From Haloterrigena sp. KLK7 (GTDB lineage: Archaea; Halobacteriota; Halobacteria; Halobacteriales; Natrialbaceae), in NCBI RefSeq assembly GCF_037914945.1, contig NZ_CP149787.1, forward strand, positions 1,612,001 through 1,676,000: a DNA stretch of 64,000 bases, given 5' to 3'. Positions 5,063-41,635 of this stretch are shown here, in pieces (position 1 is the stretch's first letter; each line of letters opens with the position of its first letter). Under the pieces are notes generated by a model. It did not search any database. It was not told the DNA's origin and was given only the letters and a program-made list of their open reading frames with translations. Position numbers and translations under genes: made by a program.

Positions 5063-8000
5063 ATGCGCGAGGCAGACGAGCGCTACTTCGAGCGACTCGA
5101 GTCCCAGTTAGACGAGGCCTTCGACGTCGCCGAGCGGGCCAAGGAGCGCGGCGCCGATCCGAAACCGGAAGTCGAGATCCCGACCGCGCGGGACATGGCC
5201 GACCGCGTCGAGAACATCCTCGGGATCGACGGCGTCGCCGAGCGCGTCCGCGAACTCGAGGGCGAGATGAGCCGGGAAGAGGCGGCCCTGGAACTGGCGA
5301 AGGACTTCGCCGAGGGACGGGTCGGCGACTACGAGTCGAAGGCCGGCAAGGTCGAGGGCGCCGTCCGCACCGCGGTCGCGCTCCTGACCGAAGGGGTCGT
5401 CGCCGCCCCCATCGAGGGGATCGACAAGGTCGAGATCTTAGAGAACGACGACGGGACGGAGTTCGTCAACGTCTACTACGCCGGTCCGATCCGCTCTGCG
5501 GGCGGGACCGCGCAGGCCCTCTCGGTGCTCGTCGCCGACTACACCCGCGCGCTCGTCGGCATCGAACAGTACGGCGCCCGCGACGAGGAGATCGAGCGCT
5601 ATGCCGAGGAGATCGCCCTCTACGACAAGGAGACCGGGCTCCAATATACGCCCAAGGACAAGGAGACGAAGTTCATCGCCGAGCACATGCCGATCATGCT
5701 GGACGGTGAAGCCACGGGCGACGAGGAGGTCTCCGGCTTCCGCGACCTAGAGCGGGTCGACACCAACAGCGCCCGCGGCGGGATGTGTCTGGTCATGGCC
5801 GAGGGGATCGCGCTGAAGGCCCCGAAGATCCAGCGCTACACCCGCAACTTAGACGAGGTCGACTGGCCGTGGCTGCAGGACCTCATCGACGGCAACTACT
5901 ACGACGACGCCGGTGACGAGGAGAGCGCGGACGACGGCGACGAAGACGACGCGGCCGACGACGGCGACGCGGAGAGCGCGGACGGCGGCGACGCCGAGTC
6001 CGACGCCGACGGCCCCGAGGGACCCCCGCGCGTCGACGAATCCACGAAGTTCCTCCGGGACCTGATCGCCGGGCGGCCCGTCTTCTCTCACCCCTGTGCG
6101 GAAGGGGGCTTTCGACTGCGCTACGGTCGCGCGCGCAACCACGGCTTCGCGACCGCCGGCGTCCACCCCGCCGCGATGCACCTGGTCGACGACTTCCTCG
6201 CGACCGGCACCCAGATCAAGACCGAACGACCCGGCAAGGCCGCCGGCGTCGTCCCCGTCGACTCCATCGAGGGGCCGACCGTCAAACTGGCCAACGGAGA
6301 CGTCCGGCGGATCGACGACCCCGACGACGCTCTCGAGATCAGAAACGGCGTCGAGAAGATCTTAGACCTCGGCGAGTACCTCGTCAACTACGGCGAGTTC
6401 GTCGAGAACAACCATCCGCTCGCCCCGGCCTCCTACACCTACGAGTGGTGGATCCAGGACTTAGAGGCCGCCGGCGCCGACGTGCAGGCCCTCGCGGACG
6501 ACCCCCGGATCGACCTCGAGTTCCCCGACCCCGAGGAGGCCCTCGAGTGGGCCCTCGAGTACGACGCGCCGCTGCATCCGGAGTACACCTACCTCTGGCA
6601 CGATATCTCGGTCGACGCCTTCTGCGGCCTCGCCGCGTCGGTCGCGGACGGGCGGATCGAGCGGGACGGCGACGGCAGCGTGAACGGCAACGGGGACGAC
6701 AGCGTCCTCGTCCTCGCGCACGACGACGCCGTCGCGGACGCCCTCGAGACGATCGTCATCGAGCACCGCCAGCGCCCCGACGCGGACCGCATCGAGATCG
6801 ACGACTGGCGGCCGTTCGTCCGCACCGTCGGCTGCGAGCCCCGGCAGGCGGTCGCCGACGGGGCCGCGCTCGAACCCGAGGGCGGCGAGCGCCCCGTCAT
6901 CGAACTCGAGCGCACCTGGTCCGACGATGACCTCTCCGACCGCGCCCGTAACTGGGGCCGCGAGGACGAACCCGCCGGCGCCAACGCCGTCGAGGCCGTC
7001 AACGAAGTCGCGCCGTTTCAGGTGCGCGAGCGCGCCCCCACGCGGATCGGCAATCGGATGGGACGCCCGGAGAAGTCCGAGAGCCGCGACCTCAGCCCGC
7101 CCGTGCACACGCTGTTCCCGATCGGCGAGGCCGGCGGCGCACAGCGCAACGTCGCCGACGCCGCCAAACACGCCGAGACGATGTCGGACACGCCCGGCGT
7201 CGTCGAACTGCAGGTCGGCCGCCAGCGCTGTCCCGACTGCGCGACGGAGACGTTCAAGAACCGCTGTCCCGACTGCGACGCGCGGACCGAACCGGACTAT
7301 CGGTGTCCCGACTGCGACGAGTCCCTCGAGCCCGACGACGCCGGCCGCGTCGAGTGCGACCGCTGTGAACGCGAGGGCACCTGCGTCGAGGTCCGCGAGA
7401 TCGACGTCAACGACGAGTTCCGCTCCGCCCTCGAGTCCGTCGGGGAACGCGAGAACGCCTTCGACATCCTCAAAGGCGTCAAGGGGCTGTCCTCGACGAA
7501 CAAGATCCCCGAACCCATCGAGAAGGGGATCCTGCGCGCGAAACACGACGTCTCGGCGTTCAAGGACGGCACCGTTCGCTACGACATGACCGACCTCCCG
7601 GTCACGTCCGTCCGCGCCAGCGAACTCGACGTCGACGTCGGTCAGCTCCAGTCGCTCGGCTACGAGGAGGACATCCACGGCGATCCGCTGACCCACGAGG
7701 ACCAGCTGGTCGAACTCAAGGTGCAGGACATCGTCCTCTCGGACGGCGCGGCCGAGCACATGTTGCAGACGGCCGACTTCATCGACGACCTGTTGGAGCA
7801 GTACTACGGCCTCGAGCCGTTCTACGAGTTCGAGGACCGGCAAGAGCTGGTCGGCGAACTCGTCTTCGGGATGGCGCCCCACACCTCGGCAGCAACTGTC
7901 GGGAGGGTGATTGGTTTCACGAGCGCGGCGGTCGGATACGCTCATCCGTACTTTCACGCCGCGAAGCGGCGGAACTGCGACGGTGACGAGGATTGCGTGA

Positions 8001-8722
8001 TGCTGCTTCTCGACGGACTTCTCAACTTCAGTAAGTCTTTCTTGCCCGATCAGCGCGGGGGGAAGATGGACGCCCCCCTCGTCATGTCCTCCCGCATCGA
8101 TCCCTCCGAGATCGACGACGAGGCCCACAACATGGACGTCGTCTCGCAGTACCCCCGCGAGTTCTACCTCGCGACCCGCGAGCAGGCCGACCCCGAGGAC
8201 GTCGACGTCCAGATCGCCGAGGCGAACCTCGGAACCGACCTCGAGTACACCGGCTTCGAACACACCCACGACACCACCGACATCGCGATGGGGCCCGACC
8301 TCTCGGCGTACAAGACGCTGGGTTCGATGATGGACAAGATGGACGCCCAGCTCGAGCTCTCGCGGAAACTCGAAGCCGTCGACGAGACCGACGTCGCGGA
8401 ACGGGTCATCGAGTACCACTTCCTCCCGGACCTGATCGGGAACCTGCGCGCGTTCTCCCGGCAGGAGACCCGCTGTCTCGACTGCGGCGAGAAGTTCCGG
8501 CGGATGCCCCTGACCGGCGACTGCCGGGAGTGCGGCGGCCGGGTCAATCTCACCGTCCACAAGGGCTCGGTGAACAAGTACATGCAGACCGCGATTCAGG
8601 TGGCCGACGAGTACGACTGCCGACCCTACACGAAACAGCGGTTAGAAGTGCTCGAGCGATCCCTCGAGAGCATCTTCGAGAACGACAAGAACAAGCAGAG
8701 CGGTATTGAAGACTTCATGTAG
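5063..8722 (+). CDS. polC: DNA polymerase II (PolD) large subunit DP2
   Basis: Catalytic subunit of the archaeal replicative D-family polymerase, 1219 residues without an intein. The catalytic motif NCDGDED is at 971-977. Zinc clusters are visible at about 720-775 (four CPDC/CDRC-type pairs) and about 1138-1160 (CLDCGEKF...CRECGG). The C-terminus QSGIEDFM resembles a PCNA-interacting peptide. A highly acidic linker at about 279-321 is a haloarchaeal embellishment. Codon use is uniformly GC3-rich except for residues about 943-996, around the known intein insertion point between N971 and C972, where A/T-ending codons suddenly become common. A complex hairpin element starts immediately after the stop. 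Confidence 0.98.
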   Translation: MREADERYFERLESQLDEAFDVAERAKERGADPKPEVEIPTARDMADRVENILGIDGVAERVRELEGEMSREEAALELAKDFAEGRVGDYESKAGKVEGAVRTAVALLTEGVVAAPIEGIDKVEILENDDGTEFVNVYYAGPIRSAGGTAQALSVLVADYTRALVGIEQYGARDEEIERYAEEIALYDKETGLQYTPKDKETKFIAEHMPIMLDGEATGDEEVSGFRDLERVDTNSARGGMCLVMAEGIALKAPKIQRYTRNLDEVDWPWLQDLIDGNYYDDAGDEESADDGDEDDAADDGDAESADGGDAESDADGPEGPPRVDESTKFLRDLIAGRPVFSHPCAEGGFRLRYGRARNHGFATAGVHPAAMHLVDDFLATGTQIKTERPGKAAGVVPVDSIEGPTVKLANGDVRRIDDPDDALEIRNGVEKILDLGEYLVNYGEFVENNHPLAPASYTYEWWIQDLEAAGADVQALADDPRIDLEFPDPEEALEWALEYDAPLHPEYTYLWHDISVDAFCGLAASVADGRIERDGDGSVNGNGDDSVLVLAHDDAVADALETIVIEHRQRPDADRIEIDDWRPFVRTVGCEPRQAVADGAALEPEGGERPVIELERTWSDDDLSDRARNWGREDEPAGANAVEAVNEVAPFQVRERAPTRIGNRMGRPEKSESRDLSPPVHTLFPIGEAGGAQRNVADAAKHAETMSDTPGVVELQVGRQRCPDCATETFKNRCPDCDARTEPDYRCPDCDESLEPDDAGRVECDRCEREGTCVEVREIDVNDEFRSALESVGERENAFDILKGVKGLSSTNKIPEPIEKGILRAKHDVSAFKDGTVRYDMTDLPVTSVRASELDVDVGQLQSLGYEEDIHGDPLTHEDQLVELKVQDIVLSDGAAEHMLQTADFIDDLLEQYYGLEPFYEFEDRQELVGELVFGMAPHTSAATVGRVIGFTSAAVGYAHPYFHAAKRRNCDGDEDCVMLLLDGLLNFSKSFLPDQRGGKMDAPLVMSSRIDPSEIDDEAHNMDVVSQYPREFYLATREQADPEDVDVQIAEANLGTDLEYTGFEHTHDTTDIAMGPDLSAYKTLGSMMDKMDAQLELSRKLEAVDETDVAERVIEYHFLPDLIGNLRAFSRQETRCLDCGEKFRRMPLTGDCRECGGRVNLTVHKGSVNKYMQTAIQVADEYDCRPYTKQRLEVLERSLESIFENDKNKQSGIEDFM
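7889..8050 (+). other. Codon-usage anomaly centred on the polC intein insertion site
   Basis: My hand count over these 54 codons gives 17 ending in A or T (about 31%). About 75 codons just upstream give 5, and about 40 just downstream give 1. The tract is nearly symmetric around the Asn971/Cys972 junction, the site used by PolII inteins in other archaea. The protein sequence itself is the conserved one. This looks like a foreign or recoded patch left by intein homing and loss, or a conversion tract from a diverged polC allele. Confidence 0.65.
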
Positions 8723-8723
8723 A

Positions 8724-8981
8724 CCAAACTTTTGCTCTGCGTGCGGTCGCTCCGCGACCGCACTCGGCAAAACTTTGATGAAAAGCACTCCTCCTTCCGT
8801 TCCGGGACGCAGAGCGTCCCTCCACATCAGTCGTCGGCCCGCTCGCTCCCTTCGGTCGCTCGCGGCGACTACCGGTGAATCGCCTGCCCTCCCCCGTTGA
8901 GCGGACGCTACGCGTCCGCGATGCTCGGAAGAGCTTGCTCTTCCGTAGAGTCGCGCGGCTCTCGCAGTGCTCGAGCCGCGC
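8724..8981 (+). repeat. 3'-end structured repeat element, polC copy (five hairpins)
   Basis: It starts two bases after the polC stop. Hairpin 1 has an outer AT-rich stem (8726-8735 with 8767-8776, one mismatch) enclosing TCTGC, a 10-base GC stem with loop TCC (8741-8763) and TCG. Then come a conserved run beginning GCAAAA (8767-8798), hairpin 2 (8804-8820, loop AGA), the conserved TCGTCGGCCCG (8831-8841) and CGGTGAA (8873-8879), hairpin 3 (8901-8919, loop TAC), hairpin 4 (8926-8945) and hairpin 5 (9-base stem, 8953-8981). The same order of conserved blocks, with different stem sequences, follows the thermosome gene. There is no protein-coding sequence here. Confidence 0.75.
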
Positions 8982-9017
8982 TCTCGGCCATACAGTTAGA
9001 AACGTAGATGCGTTCGC

Positions 9018-39457: not shown

Positions 39458-39932
39458 ACTGGCAAATATCGCGGGAAGCTACTTAATTTGCCCCGAAACG
39501 CTACAGGTGACGCCAATCGGGAGCCCGACCGCGCCTCGAGTCACGTTTTGAACGGTCTGTTCGTCAACGACTCGAGTTACGACTGGCACGCTCGTCTAGC
39601 CAGTGCCGATCGGACGGACCGCGAGAGTACGGAATTCGGGAGCGACGACGAAAGAGAGATCGATGAAATGGGGCCGACTGCAGTGGACGACTCGAGCGGG
39701 CGATAGCCCGCCGAACAAGCTTCCGATCGAACGTCGGCGAGTGAGCGGTTCGGAGAACCCGAACGACGCCGTTCACCGAGCGCGAAGCGCTCGGGCCGAC
39801 GAGCGACCGGTGCGCGGCGCCACGCGCCGCGGCATGGCGAGCGGCGAAGCCGCGAGTCAGGGAGCGAGGAGCGCTTTTATACTAAATTTTGCCGAGGGGC
39901 GGCGTAGCCGCCCCGCAGAGCAAAATTTAGGT
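39458..39932. other. Gene-free stretch between the AlaDH/OCD gene and the thermosome
   Basis: 475 bases without a supported gene. The left part holds the AlaDH/OCD promoter (39481-39488). The right part (39772-39931) is the thermosome copy of the structured 3'-end element described separately. The 39560-39770 section has no feature I can name. Confidence 0.6.
39772..39931 (-). repeat. 3'-end structured repeat element, thermosome copy
   Basis: Read on the minus strand, it starts two bases after the thermosome stop. A perfect 11-base AT-rich outer stem (39920-39930 with 39882-39892) encloses TCTGC, an 8-base GC stem with loop TAC (39896-39914) and TCG. Then come a conserved block 24/32 identical to the polC copy, hairpins at 39841-39853, 39813-39831 and 39776-39794, and the shared TCGTCGGCCCG (39792-39802) and CGGTGAA. 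Stem sequences differ from the polC copy but remain paired. Confidence 0.75.
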
Positions 39933-41609
39933 TTACATCATGCCGCCCATGCCGCCGCCCATACCGCCCATGCCGCCGCCCATGCCGCCGCCGGGGCCGC
40001 CGGGCATCTCCTCGTCATCGTCGTCGTCGGCGACCGCGAGGTCGCCGGCGGCGATGACGTCGTCGATGCGCAGCAGCATGACGGCCGCCTCGGTGGCAGA
40101 CTCGATGGCCTGGGTCTTCACGCGCAGCGGCTCGTAGACGCCTTCCTCGGCCATGTCGATGGTGTCGCCGGTGTAGGCGTCGAGCCCGGAGCTGGTGTCG
40201 CCCGCGTCGTGGTCGGCGCGGAGTTCGACCAGCGAGTCGATGGGGTCGAGCCCGGCGTTCTCGGCCAGCGTGCGCGGGATGACCTCGAGGGCGTCGGCGA
40301 AGGCCTCGACGGCGAGCTGCTCGCGGCCGCCGACGGAGTCGGCGTAGTCGCGAAGCGACAGCGAGAGGTCGACCTCGGGGGCGCCGCCGCCGGCGACGAC
40401 CTTGCCGTCCTCGAGGGTCGTTCGCACCACACCGAGGGAGTCCTCGATGGCGCGGTCGACCTCGTCGATGACGTGGTCGGTGCCGCCGCGGAGGATGAGG
40501 GTGACGGCCTTGGCGTCGTCGACGTCCTCGACGAAGATGCGCTGGTCGCCGGCGATCTCCTTCTGGGCGACGCTCCCGGCGAAGCCGAGGTCGTCCTCGC
40601 TCAGGTCGTCGACGCTCGAGACGGGCGTGGCGCCGGTCGCGCGGGCCAGCTGGTTCTGGTCGCTCGCCTTGACGCGGCGGACGGCGATGATGCCCTCCTG
40701 GGCGAGGTAGTGCTGGGCCATGTCGTCGATGCCGCCGTCGACGAAGACGACGTCGGCGCCGGCGTCGGAGACCTTCTCGGCCATCTCCTTGAGCTGCTGT
40801 TCCTCCTGCTCGAGGAACTGCTCGAGCTGGTCGGGGTCGGTGACGTTGACCTCCGCGTCGATCTCGGTCTCCTTGATCTCGAGGTCGCCGTCGACGATCG
40901 CGACGTCGGCGTCCTCAGCGAAGTAGGGCATGTTCTCGGAGACGCGCTCCTTGTCGATGATGACGCCCTCGACGAGCTCGGACTCCTCGATGGAGCCGCC
41001 GACGACCTTCTCGACCTTGATGTTGTCCGTGTCGACGCCCTCGTCGTCCGCGACGGCCTGGACGGCCTCGACGACGAGTCGGGACAGCAGGTCGCGGGCG
41101 CTCTCGGCGCCCTTGCCGGTCATCGCCGTGGCGGCGATCTGCTCGAGGATTTCGTCGTCGTCCTCCTCGACGTCGATGGCGACCTCCTCTAAGGCCTCGG
41201 TGGCCTCCTCGGCGGCCTGTCGGTACCCCTGGGCGAGGGTGGTCGCGTGGATGTCCTGGTCGAGGAGCTCCTCGGCCTGGCTGAGGAGTTCGCCGGCGAT
41301 GACGACGGCGCTCGTTGTGCCGTCGCCGACCTCGTCCTCCTGAGTCTCGGCGACTTCGACGATCATGTCGGCCGCCGGGTGGTCGATCTCCATCTCCGAC
41401 AGCAGGGTGACACCGTCGTTCGTGACGATGACGTTGCCCGTCGAGTCGACGAGCATCTTGTCCATCCCCTTCGGACCGAGCGTGGTCCGTACGGACTCGG
41501 CGACGGCTTTCCCGGCCTGAATGTTCATCGACTGCGCGTCTTTTCCGGAGGTCCGCTGGCTATCCTCCGAGAGAACGATAAGGGGCTGGTTACCCATCTG
41601 CTGAGCCAT
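39933..41609 (-). CDS. ths: Thermosome subunit (group II chaperonin)
   Basis: 558 residues, cytosolic ATP-dependent chaperonin forming double rings with a built-in lid. The ATP site includes [14 protein letters not shown] and [28 protein letters not shown] and a final acidic-plus-GGM tail (about 530-558) are typical of haloarchaea. The ATG at 41609 is preferred over an in-frame TTG six bases upstream; it has a TATA at 31 bases. A structured element begins right after the stop. Confidence 0.97.
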
Positions 41610-41635
41610 AGTCAAGAGAACGATTGATTGTTATT

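Follow-up and report, generated by a model that had tools for sequence, protein, structure and literature searches.

The DNA analysed here, a window of 64,000 nt, contains two copies of a structured repeat, the first of which lies behind polC, the gene for the 1219-aa large subunit of DNA polymerase II (D). This gene, taken from the list of open reading frames and matched above cut-off by NCBIfam polC and PRK04023, runs from 5063 to 8722 on the plus strand, and its stop codon (TAG, 8720–8722) is followed by AC and then by copy 1 at 8725–8989, whose approximate right end is the point where similarity between copies stops in a comparison of 42 tails. The copy opens with helix P1 (8725–8777; coordinates on the plus strand, fold read on the minus strand), recognized by direct reading and by pairs that co-vary. 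Its outer stem, which contains T4/A4, pairs CAAACTTTTGC (8725–8735) with GCAAAACTTTG (8767–8777) and encloses TCTGC (8736–8740), a perfect 10-bp inner stem with a 3-nt loop (8741–8750/8754–8763) and TCG (8764–8766). A linker at 8778–8784, which reads ATGAAAA on the plus and UUUUCAU on the minus strand and was placed by direct reading and alignment, leads to helix P2 (8785–8838, minus strand), where 8785–8800 pairs with 8824–8838, three tandem G.A units occur on the minus strand and a variable hairpin is held at 8804–8820; this helix rests on the alignment and on Y/R and x/y covariation. Helix P3 (8839–8865, minus strand; direct reading and alignment) has the sequence CCGC-GA-GC-GA...GA-GC-GA-GCGG on that strand, and the tail modules at 8866–8989, recorded for neither strand, comprise GGTGAA, GCCTGCCCTCCCCCG and several hairpins up to an end at CTCTCGGCC.

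Copy 2 follows a thermosome subunit gene on the minus strand (39933–41615; thermosome_alpha above cut-off) and again begins after the stop codon (TAA, 39935–39933) and AC, extending from 39930 to about 39732; given the position of this reading frame, it lies about 31 kb beyond the stretch to which the preliminary description had assigned the repeat. Its P1 (39882–39930, fold read on the plus strand; direct reading and model match) pairs CTAAATTTTGC (39930–39920) with GCAAAATTTAG (39892–39882) around TCTGC, a perfect 8-bp inner stem with a 3-nt loop, and TCG. P2, here with extra hairpins, and P3, in the fully paired form CCGAGCGC/GCGCTCGG, occupy 39776–39874 on the plus strand, and the tail (39732–39775, plus strand, end approximate) carries a TGAACGGCGTCGTTCGGGTTCTCCGAACCGCTCACTCGCCGACG hairpin that is also found 3' of other copies. 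BLAST of copy 1 within the window recovers copy 2 at E = 1e-4, and the covariance model introduced below scores it at 79.7 bits (E = 7e-20) over contig positions 1651776–1651930, which are window positions 39776–39930.

On the gene strand both copies thus have the same layout, in which P1, with its T4/A4, GC hairpin and TCTGC/TCG, is followed by an AAAAG linker, P2 with its variable hairpin, P3 and the tail, and direct reading finds TCGTCGGCCCG and then CGGTGAA downstream in both, with order and orientation relative to the gene unchanged. The core of what the preliminary description had observed, namely a repeat common to the 3' ends of the two genes, its start two bases past each stop codon, the outer stem around TCTGC, GC hairpin and TCG, and inner stems that differ in sequence but pair perfectly over 10 and 8 bp, is confirmed, while its interpretation as a 3'-end element or a small mobile palindrome is partly supported: evidence exists for both, but the element is more than one palindrome. 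It is well supported that the structure comprises three helices or more (P1, P2 and P3) together with further modules.

Structure rather than sequence is what has been conserved, as had been proposed, and compensatory changes preserve the fold, tandem G.A units included. In a MAFFT alignment of 37 sequences picked for short hairpins, standard pairing is seen in 96.3% of the cells of the named Watson-Crick pairs versus 86.4% after shuffling, cells with double changes number 123 versus 34, and the covariation score is 0.307 versus 0.119, so that the covariation across these sequences is strong; the number of further pair types (30 versus 31.4) does not stand out. Sliding the partners by 1–3 columns lowers pairing to 35–57%, a comparison that favours the true register because the structure was named after the alignment had been viewed. 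On the strand opposite the gene, P2 reads 5' GCC-GA-C-GA-CY-GA-Y-xx ... xx-G-GA-RG-GA-G-GA-G-Y-GC, and P3 keeps the CCGC-GA-GC-GA ... GA-GC-GA-GCGG form given above. The Y/R pair of P2 co-varies (C/G 47, T/A 43, C/A 6 and T/G 1 in gene-strand letters, n = 97), and Watson-Crick pairing holds at x in 94 and at y in 95 of the 97; these counts cover 97 of 137 copies, the other 40, several with another form of P2, having not fitted the parser. Of the GA units in P2, the first and the second are each kept in 87 of 96 parsed copies drawn from larger sets, and in 34 and 31 of 41 in a set that includes other families. Words of the GAGCGAACGGAGTGAGCGAGC type, such as window 8839–8865, are common in haloarchaeal intergenic DNA and can be read as tandem-G.A hairpins whose Watson-Crick pairs between the G.A units co-vary (GC/GC with GT/AC). 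A kink-turn in the P1 internal loop, formed on the opposite strand by tandem G.A pairs and a 3-nt bulge, was considered and rejected: the required A is present only in the TCTGC and TCTGT types, and the GCTGC type, in 45 of 137 copies, puts C in its place.

The UC/CU mismatches of P2 and P3 on the gene strand become tandem GA pairs on the opposite strand, and the next position of P2, C/A in 51 of 97 copies and C/G in 46, reads as U.G or C-G on the opposite strand versus A.C or G-C on the gene strand. For P1 the strand evidence is less clear, with 11 cells of the outer stem fitting an opposite-strand wobble and 3 a gene-strand wobble, but 16 and 44, respectively, in the first six inner positions, where the register is uncertain. 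Minimum-energy folds are more stable on the opposite strand for 58 of 60 copies, the mean difference being 8.2 kcal/mol, but the two strands score alike against shuffled sequences (z of −4.1 for the opposite strand and −3.9 for the gene strand), and composition therefore explains much of this difference. The wobble and G.A pattern nonetheless fits a conserved fold of the strand opposite the host gene, as RNA or single-stranded DNA, and the element is therefore not simply the hairpin at the end of the host mRNA that had been envisaged. Ordinary mRNA 3' hairpins of many independent origins, acting in stability or termination, would be in keeping with hairpins just past stop codons and with the similarly low gene-strand z; we regard this explanation as disfavoured and very improbable, since the copies form one homologous family with the same module order and since wobbles and G.A pairs indicate the opposite strand.

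The element is dispersed, as had been predicted. Used as a BLAST query, the first 163 bases of copy 1 give 50 matches (E ≤ 1) in the 4.64-Mb genome that contains the window, and the covariance model, R1, built over 137 positions from 37 sequences, gives 45 (E ≤ 0.01), more than chance would yield. Both outcomes that would have spoken against the preliminary description, a genome lacking additional copies and stems without covariation, are thus contradicted. Across the class, R1 matches occur in 212 of 292 genomes and 66 of 77 genera at E ≤ 1e-4, the weakest of these including chance matches, and about 170 of the 292 genomes reach E ≤ 1e-8 by hand count; class-wide copy numbers are lower bounds because only about 11 candidates per genome were scored. 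That weak class-wide matches are partly chance is seen at L233 and L234 (35.8 and 32 bits), which overlap tRNA genes, look like chance and were removed from later sets. The pattern of P1 plus linker alone is present in at least 120 stretches of the public genome collection, those listed coming from Natrinema, Haloterrigena, Natronorubrum, Natrialba, Natronococcus, Halovivax, Halostagnicola, Halopiger, Natrarchaeobius and others, and also from Halomarina. Six of 72,556 plasmid records have a match, all of them haloarchaeal, and phage records have none.

The copies share the order of modules, with hairpin sequences that vary and extra hairpins at fixed places. Within the genome of the window, additional hairpin modules are nested at fixed positions in L010, L013, L017, L018, L029 and L030, with the forms GGAAGACG...CGTCTTCC, GGACCTCGC...CTTAG and GAAAGGCG...CGCCTTTC. 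At L071 and L136 adjacent copies are split by an N in the public record, possibly an assembly artefact. Rfam 15 has no match above gathering threshold in the window and only one in 14 element-bearing loci, a tRNA elsewhere in its locus and not the element. A separate conserved, RNA-like stretch (CCGGCACGAGGGTTTCCCGG...GGGATGA), which matched no Rfam family, precedes the element by about 200 nt in several families (L215, L212, L216, L224 and L229).

The P1 end of the element abuts gene 3' ends, in agreement with the proposed preference for sites just past stop codons. Among 107 model matches at 100 loci, which were gathered by sequence pattern and whose coding calls come from third-position G+C rather than annotation, 65 begin 0–6 nt past the in-frame stop of a coding-like ORF (0 nt in 23, 3 nt in 18 and 2 nt in 11), versus 65 of 10,700 positions drawn at random from those loci (0.6%); the far end is stop-adjacent in none of the 107, and 42 matches do not adjoin a stop. 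Stop-adjacent loci number 17 of 30 in the genome of the window and 3 of 27 in other families (0–8 nt), where three copies start 1–2 nt past tRNA 3' ends instead (L211 Leu, L218 Gly and L238 Val). The gene upstream points at the element in 99 of the 122 copies examined, with 21 edge cases set aside, and the next gene past these 99 is co-directional in 53 and convergent in 46, so that a tie to opposing genes is not seen and an association with convergent gene pairs was rejected. Four copies (L024, L060, L141 and L142) lie between co-directional gyrB and gyrA, the latter named by eye, and are devoid of the tail module.

The hosts are mostly core genes, and often the same gene in different genera. 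Named by family models, those in the genome of the window include polC, thermosome, GyrB, PurF, F420 reductase NpdG, TrkH, EngB, TbsP, a ribosomal L16-family protein, a TRAM-domain protein and a geranylgeranyl-reductase-like protein, and PAN2, aIF-1A, an alcohol dehydrogenase and an aminotransferase are encoded somewhere upstream of further copies. By host gene, the 65 stop-adjacent copies form 22 clusters, and the same genes recur across genera, a ribosomal protein being host in four named genera and TbsP in five. The end of polC was found in 65 of 68 loci examined, from 69 genomes with a match, and the element directly follows the polC stop in 18 of these 65 readable genomes of the taxonomic family (genus g1 4/4, g2 4/4, g6 4/4, g7 2/4, g14 2/4, g80 1/3, g22 1/2; none in others by eye); 17 of the 18 also match the model, the remaining one being the copy in the window. 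The class-wide range, the sites at tRNA genes and the recurrence at the same core genes across genera all go beyond the preliminary description.

At least one subclass of the element has multiplied recently. Genome G254 contains four identical copies of more than 125 nt at unrelated places (L239–L242), which shows that this subclass is or was mobile, and identical short-subclass copies occur in two more genomes, three in G164 (L243–L245) and two in G163 (L246–L247). In this multiplied subclass the left flanks share a degenerate ACTAC...TGC motif and the right part ends near CCGCCTGTACTGA. Two loci in other families, L338 (2204–4936) and L339 (2300–4070), hold short element series with repeated TACTAGTAG...TAGTGTTCCGGGCGTACA flanks around small genes that read as winged-helix-like, DUF433-like and Doc-like. 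Copies at the same gene in different genera have a mean identity of 0.828, compared with 0.803 when both gene and genus differ, a difference that only 2 of 300 shuffles within genus reach; copies at different genes within a single genus average 0.836. From this pattern we deduce descent at fixed places plus homogenization or multiplication within lineages.

A selfish, non-autonomous mobile element, whose structured strand would be single-stranded DNA or a guide-like RNA used for spreading, and for which the 3' ends of core genes and tRNAs would be conserved, harmless landing sites, is therefore a serious possibility, although one we hold with less than even confidence. It would readily explain the identical copies at unrelated sites in G254, the degenerate target-like flanks of the multiplied subclass, the tandem series, the greater likeness of different genes within one genus than of the same gene between genera, and the patchy presence at polC, and it would not call for any host function. 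Against it stands the somewhat greater than expected likeness of same-gene copies across genera, and no transposase was found to carry these ends: with filters off, R1 gives nothing convincing at the 10 TnpB and 2 TnpA loci of the genome (best 12.1 bits, E = 0.03), among them L335 and L336, the two loci searched for a solitary Y1 transposase flanked by copies in a genome with three Y1_Tnp matches, and an IS605 end or omega-RNA was accordingly rejected for this genome. Past the right end, the 42 tails share no constant motif except a mild A/G preference (first position A in 27, G in 12 and C in 3). The proposed comparison of empty sites could be made for polC pairs within genera and for the joined flanks of two recent copies, but it produced no clean empty site; for one recent copy the upstream gene aligns in relatives and the junction does not, and for the other almost nothing does. 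Complementarity of a guide-like kind between the element and the end of its host gene was also rejected, the mean longest shared words (6.52 and 6.67) being close to those with partners exchanged (6.36 and 6.57) and words of at least 9 occurring in 8.1% and 1.8% versus 4.2% and 3.7%.

We tentatively favour, at somewhat short of an even chance, a class-wide haloarchaeal dispersed element that is mobile-derived, structured and REP-like and that would act as a transcription boundary at gene 3' ends. We infer this role from three conserved T4 tracts, one on the gene strand just past the stop and two on the opposite strand, of which one directly follows P2, together with the description, in the accessible parts of one Haloferax study, of T stretches as the main intergenic termination signal (PMC7237163). 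The T4:A4 of P1 is unchanged in 37 of 37 aligned copies, while the adjacent pairs vary. The reading as a whole also draws on the covariation, the strand evidence, the placement at gene and tRNA 3' ends, the recurrence at the same core genes across genera and the recent multiplication in G254. We suggest that the gene-strand T4, which starts about 6–12 nt past the stop, would give the host transcript an archaeal-type T-tract stop, whereas a transcript arriving from downstream would copy the structured strand, fold P3 and then P2, encounter one UUUU immediately past P2 and another within P1, and thereby end before entering the gene in antisense. Transposition or gene conversion would spread the copies and keep them alike, and selection would retain them beside core genes. 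Co-directional neighbours are frequent, and the fold is equally preserved in copies that lie away from genes, an observation that a boundary role by itself leaves unexplained; we therefore place the boundary role below even probability. T4 is also short for a strong terminator, 42 of 107 matches and all but 3 of 27 in other families do not adjoin a stop, and the absence of the element from the polC end of most genomes shows that the host can do without it. The selfish alternative is nearly as good an account.

That the strand opposite the gene instead encodes a trans-acting or structural non-coding RNA, bound for example by a protein that recognizes G.A helices, with gene 3' ends being merely where such RNA genes can sit, seems improbable to us. 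Three strictly kept helices whose G.A units are invariant on one strand would suit such an RNA, as would the matched T/A run lengths of P1 and linker (4,4,4 in 113, 5,5,5 in 8 and other combinations in 22 of 143 copies parsed out of 170), but by eye no conserved promoter-like stretch lies past the tail, which ends in variable DNA, and some copies, such as those between gyrB and gyrA, have no tail module. The same run lengths raise the idea that the U tract preceding P1 may lie in the P1 groove as a U.A-U triple helix, an idea that is only suggestive because the long forms probably belong to one subfamily.

Several known systems resemble the element in part. Integron attC sites follow stop codons, and in them the structure of the bottom strand outweighs sequence; the element, unlike attC, adjoins chromosomal core genes rather than cassettes, and an attC origin was rejected since the genome has no match to the integron integrase TIGR02249 at E ≤ 0.001. 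The REP/BIME palindromes of bacteria, which carry a GTAG or CGTC foot tag, have proposed roles in termination and at mRNA 3' ends and are probably mobilized non-autonomous DNA. Like them, the element is dispersed (45 model matches in the genome), extragenic, palindromic and often 3' of genes, but it is much longer (about 140–270 nt), has several helices with tandem G.A pairs and abuts stop codons exactly, and no constant tag of the GTAG or CGTC kind was noticed in its alignment. As far as the accessible parts of two sources describe, REP/BIME sequences go with RAYT (TnpA-REP) transposases (PMC2817692, PMC8266576), whereas no solitary RAYT was seen adjoining element copies in the genome of the window. 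The nearest archaeal category is that of the Haloquadratum PATEs and small mobile repeats, which the available portion of PMC3119063 presents as transposase-free, palindromic and present in many copies per genome, with no target duplication described, and relates, for PATEs, to IS605-type ends. The element shares their transposase-free, palindromic and multicopy character but differs from PATEs, on that partial description (PMC3119063), in having no match at the IS605-type loci of the genome, a far wider range and a position past stops; the two are set apart by description and may overlap. As in the Haloferax T-tract terminators, so far as the same accessible parts of that study (PMC7237163) cover them, a T stretch comes soon after the gene, sometimes with a hairpin, but here the T tract lies within a large, homologous and co-varying fold of the opposite strand.

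The portions available of the open-licence literature, including PMC3119063, PMC7237163, PMC12558985, PMC7230728, PMC12306157, PMC2864571 and PMC6523106, contain no description in which we recognize the element, and with no Rfam match it looks undescribed. It may even represent a haloarchaeal class without a known relative, an RNA- or single-stranded-DNA-guided boundary element that targets core-gene and tRNA-gene 3' ends and is built on a conserved opposite-strand fold of three helices containing runs of tandem sheared G.A pairs, but in this full form we consider the proposal rather unlikely.

Haloarchaea are model archaea, yet most of the genera sampled contain this element, at polC, gyrB and genes for ribosomal proteins, the thermosome and tRNAs. 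A boundary element would bear on how archaeal transcripts end and on what limits antisense transcription; if it is instead a mobile element that lands exactly past gene ends, it raises the question of how that targeting is achieved. Under either reading, G.A-rich structured repeats occupy many haloarchaeal intergenic regions and warrant annotation.
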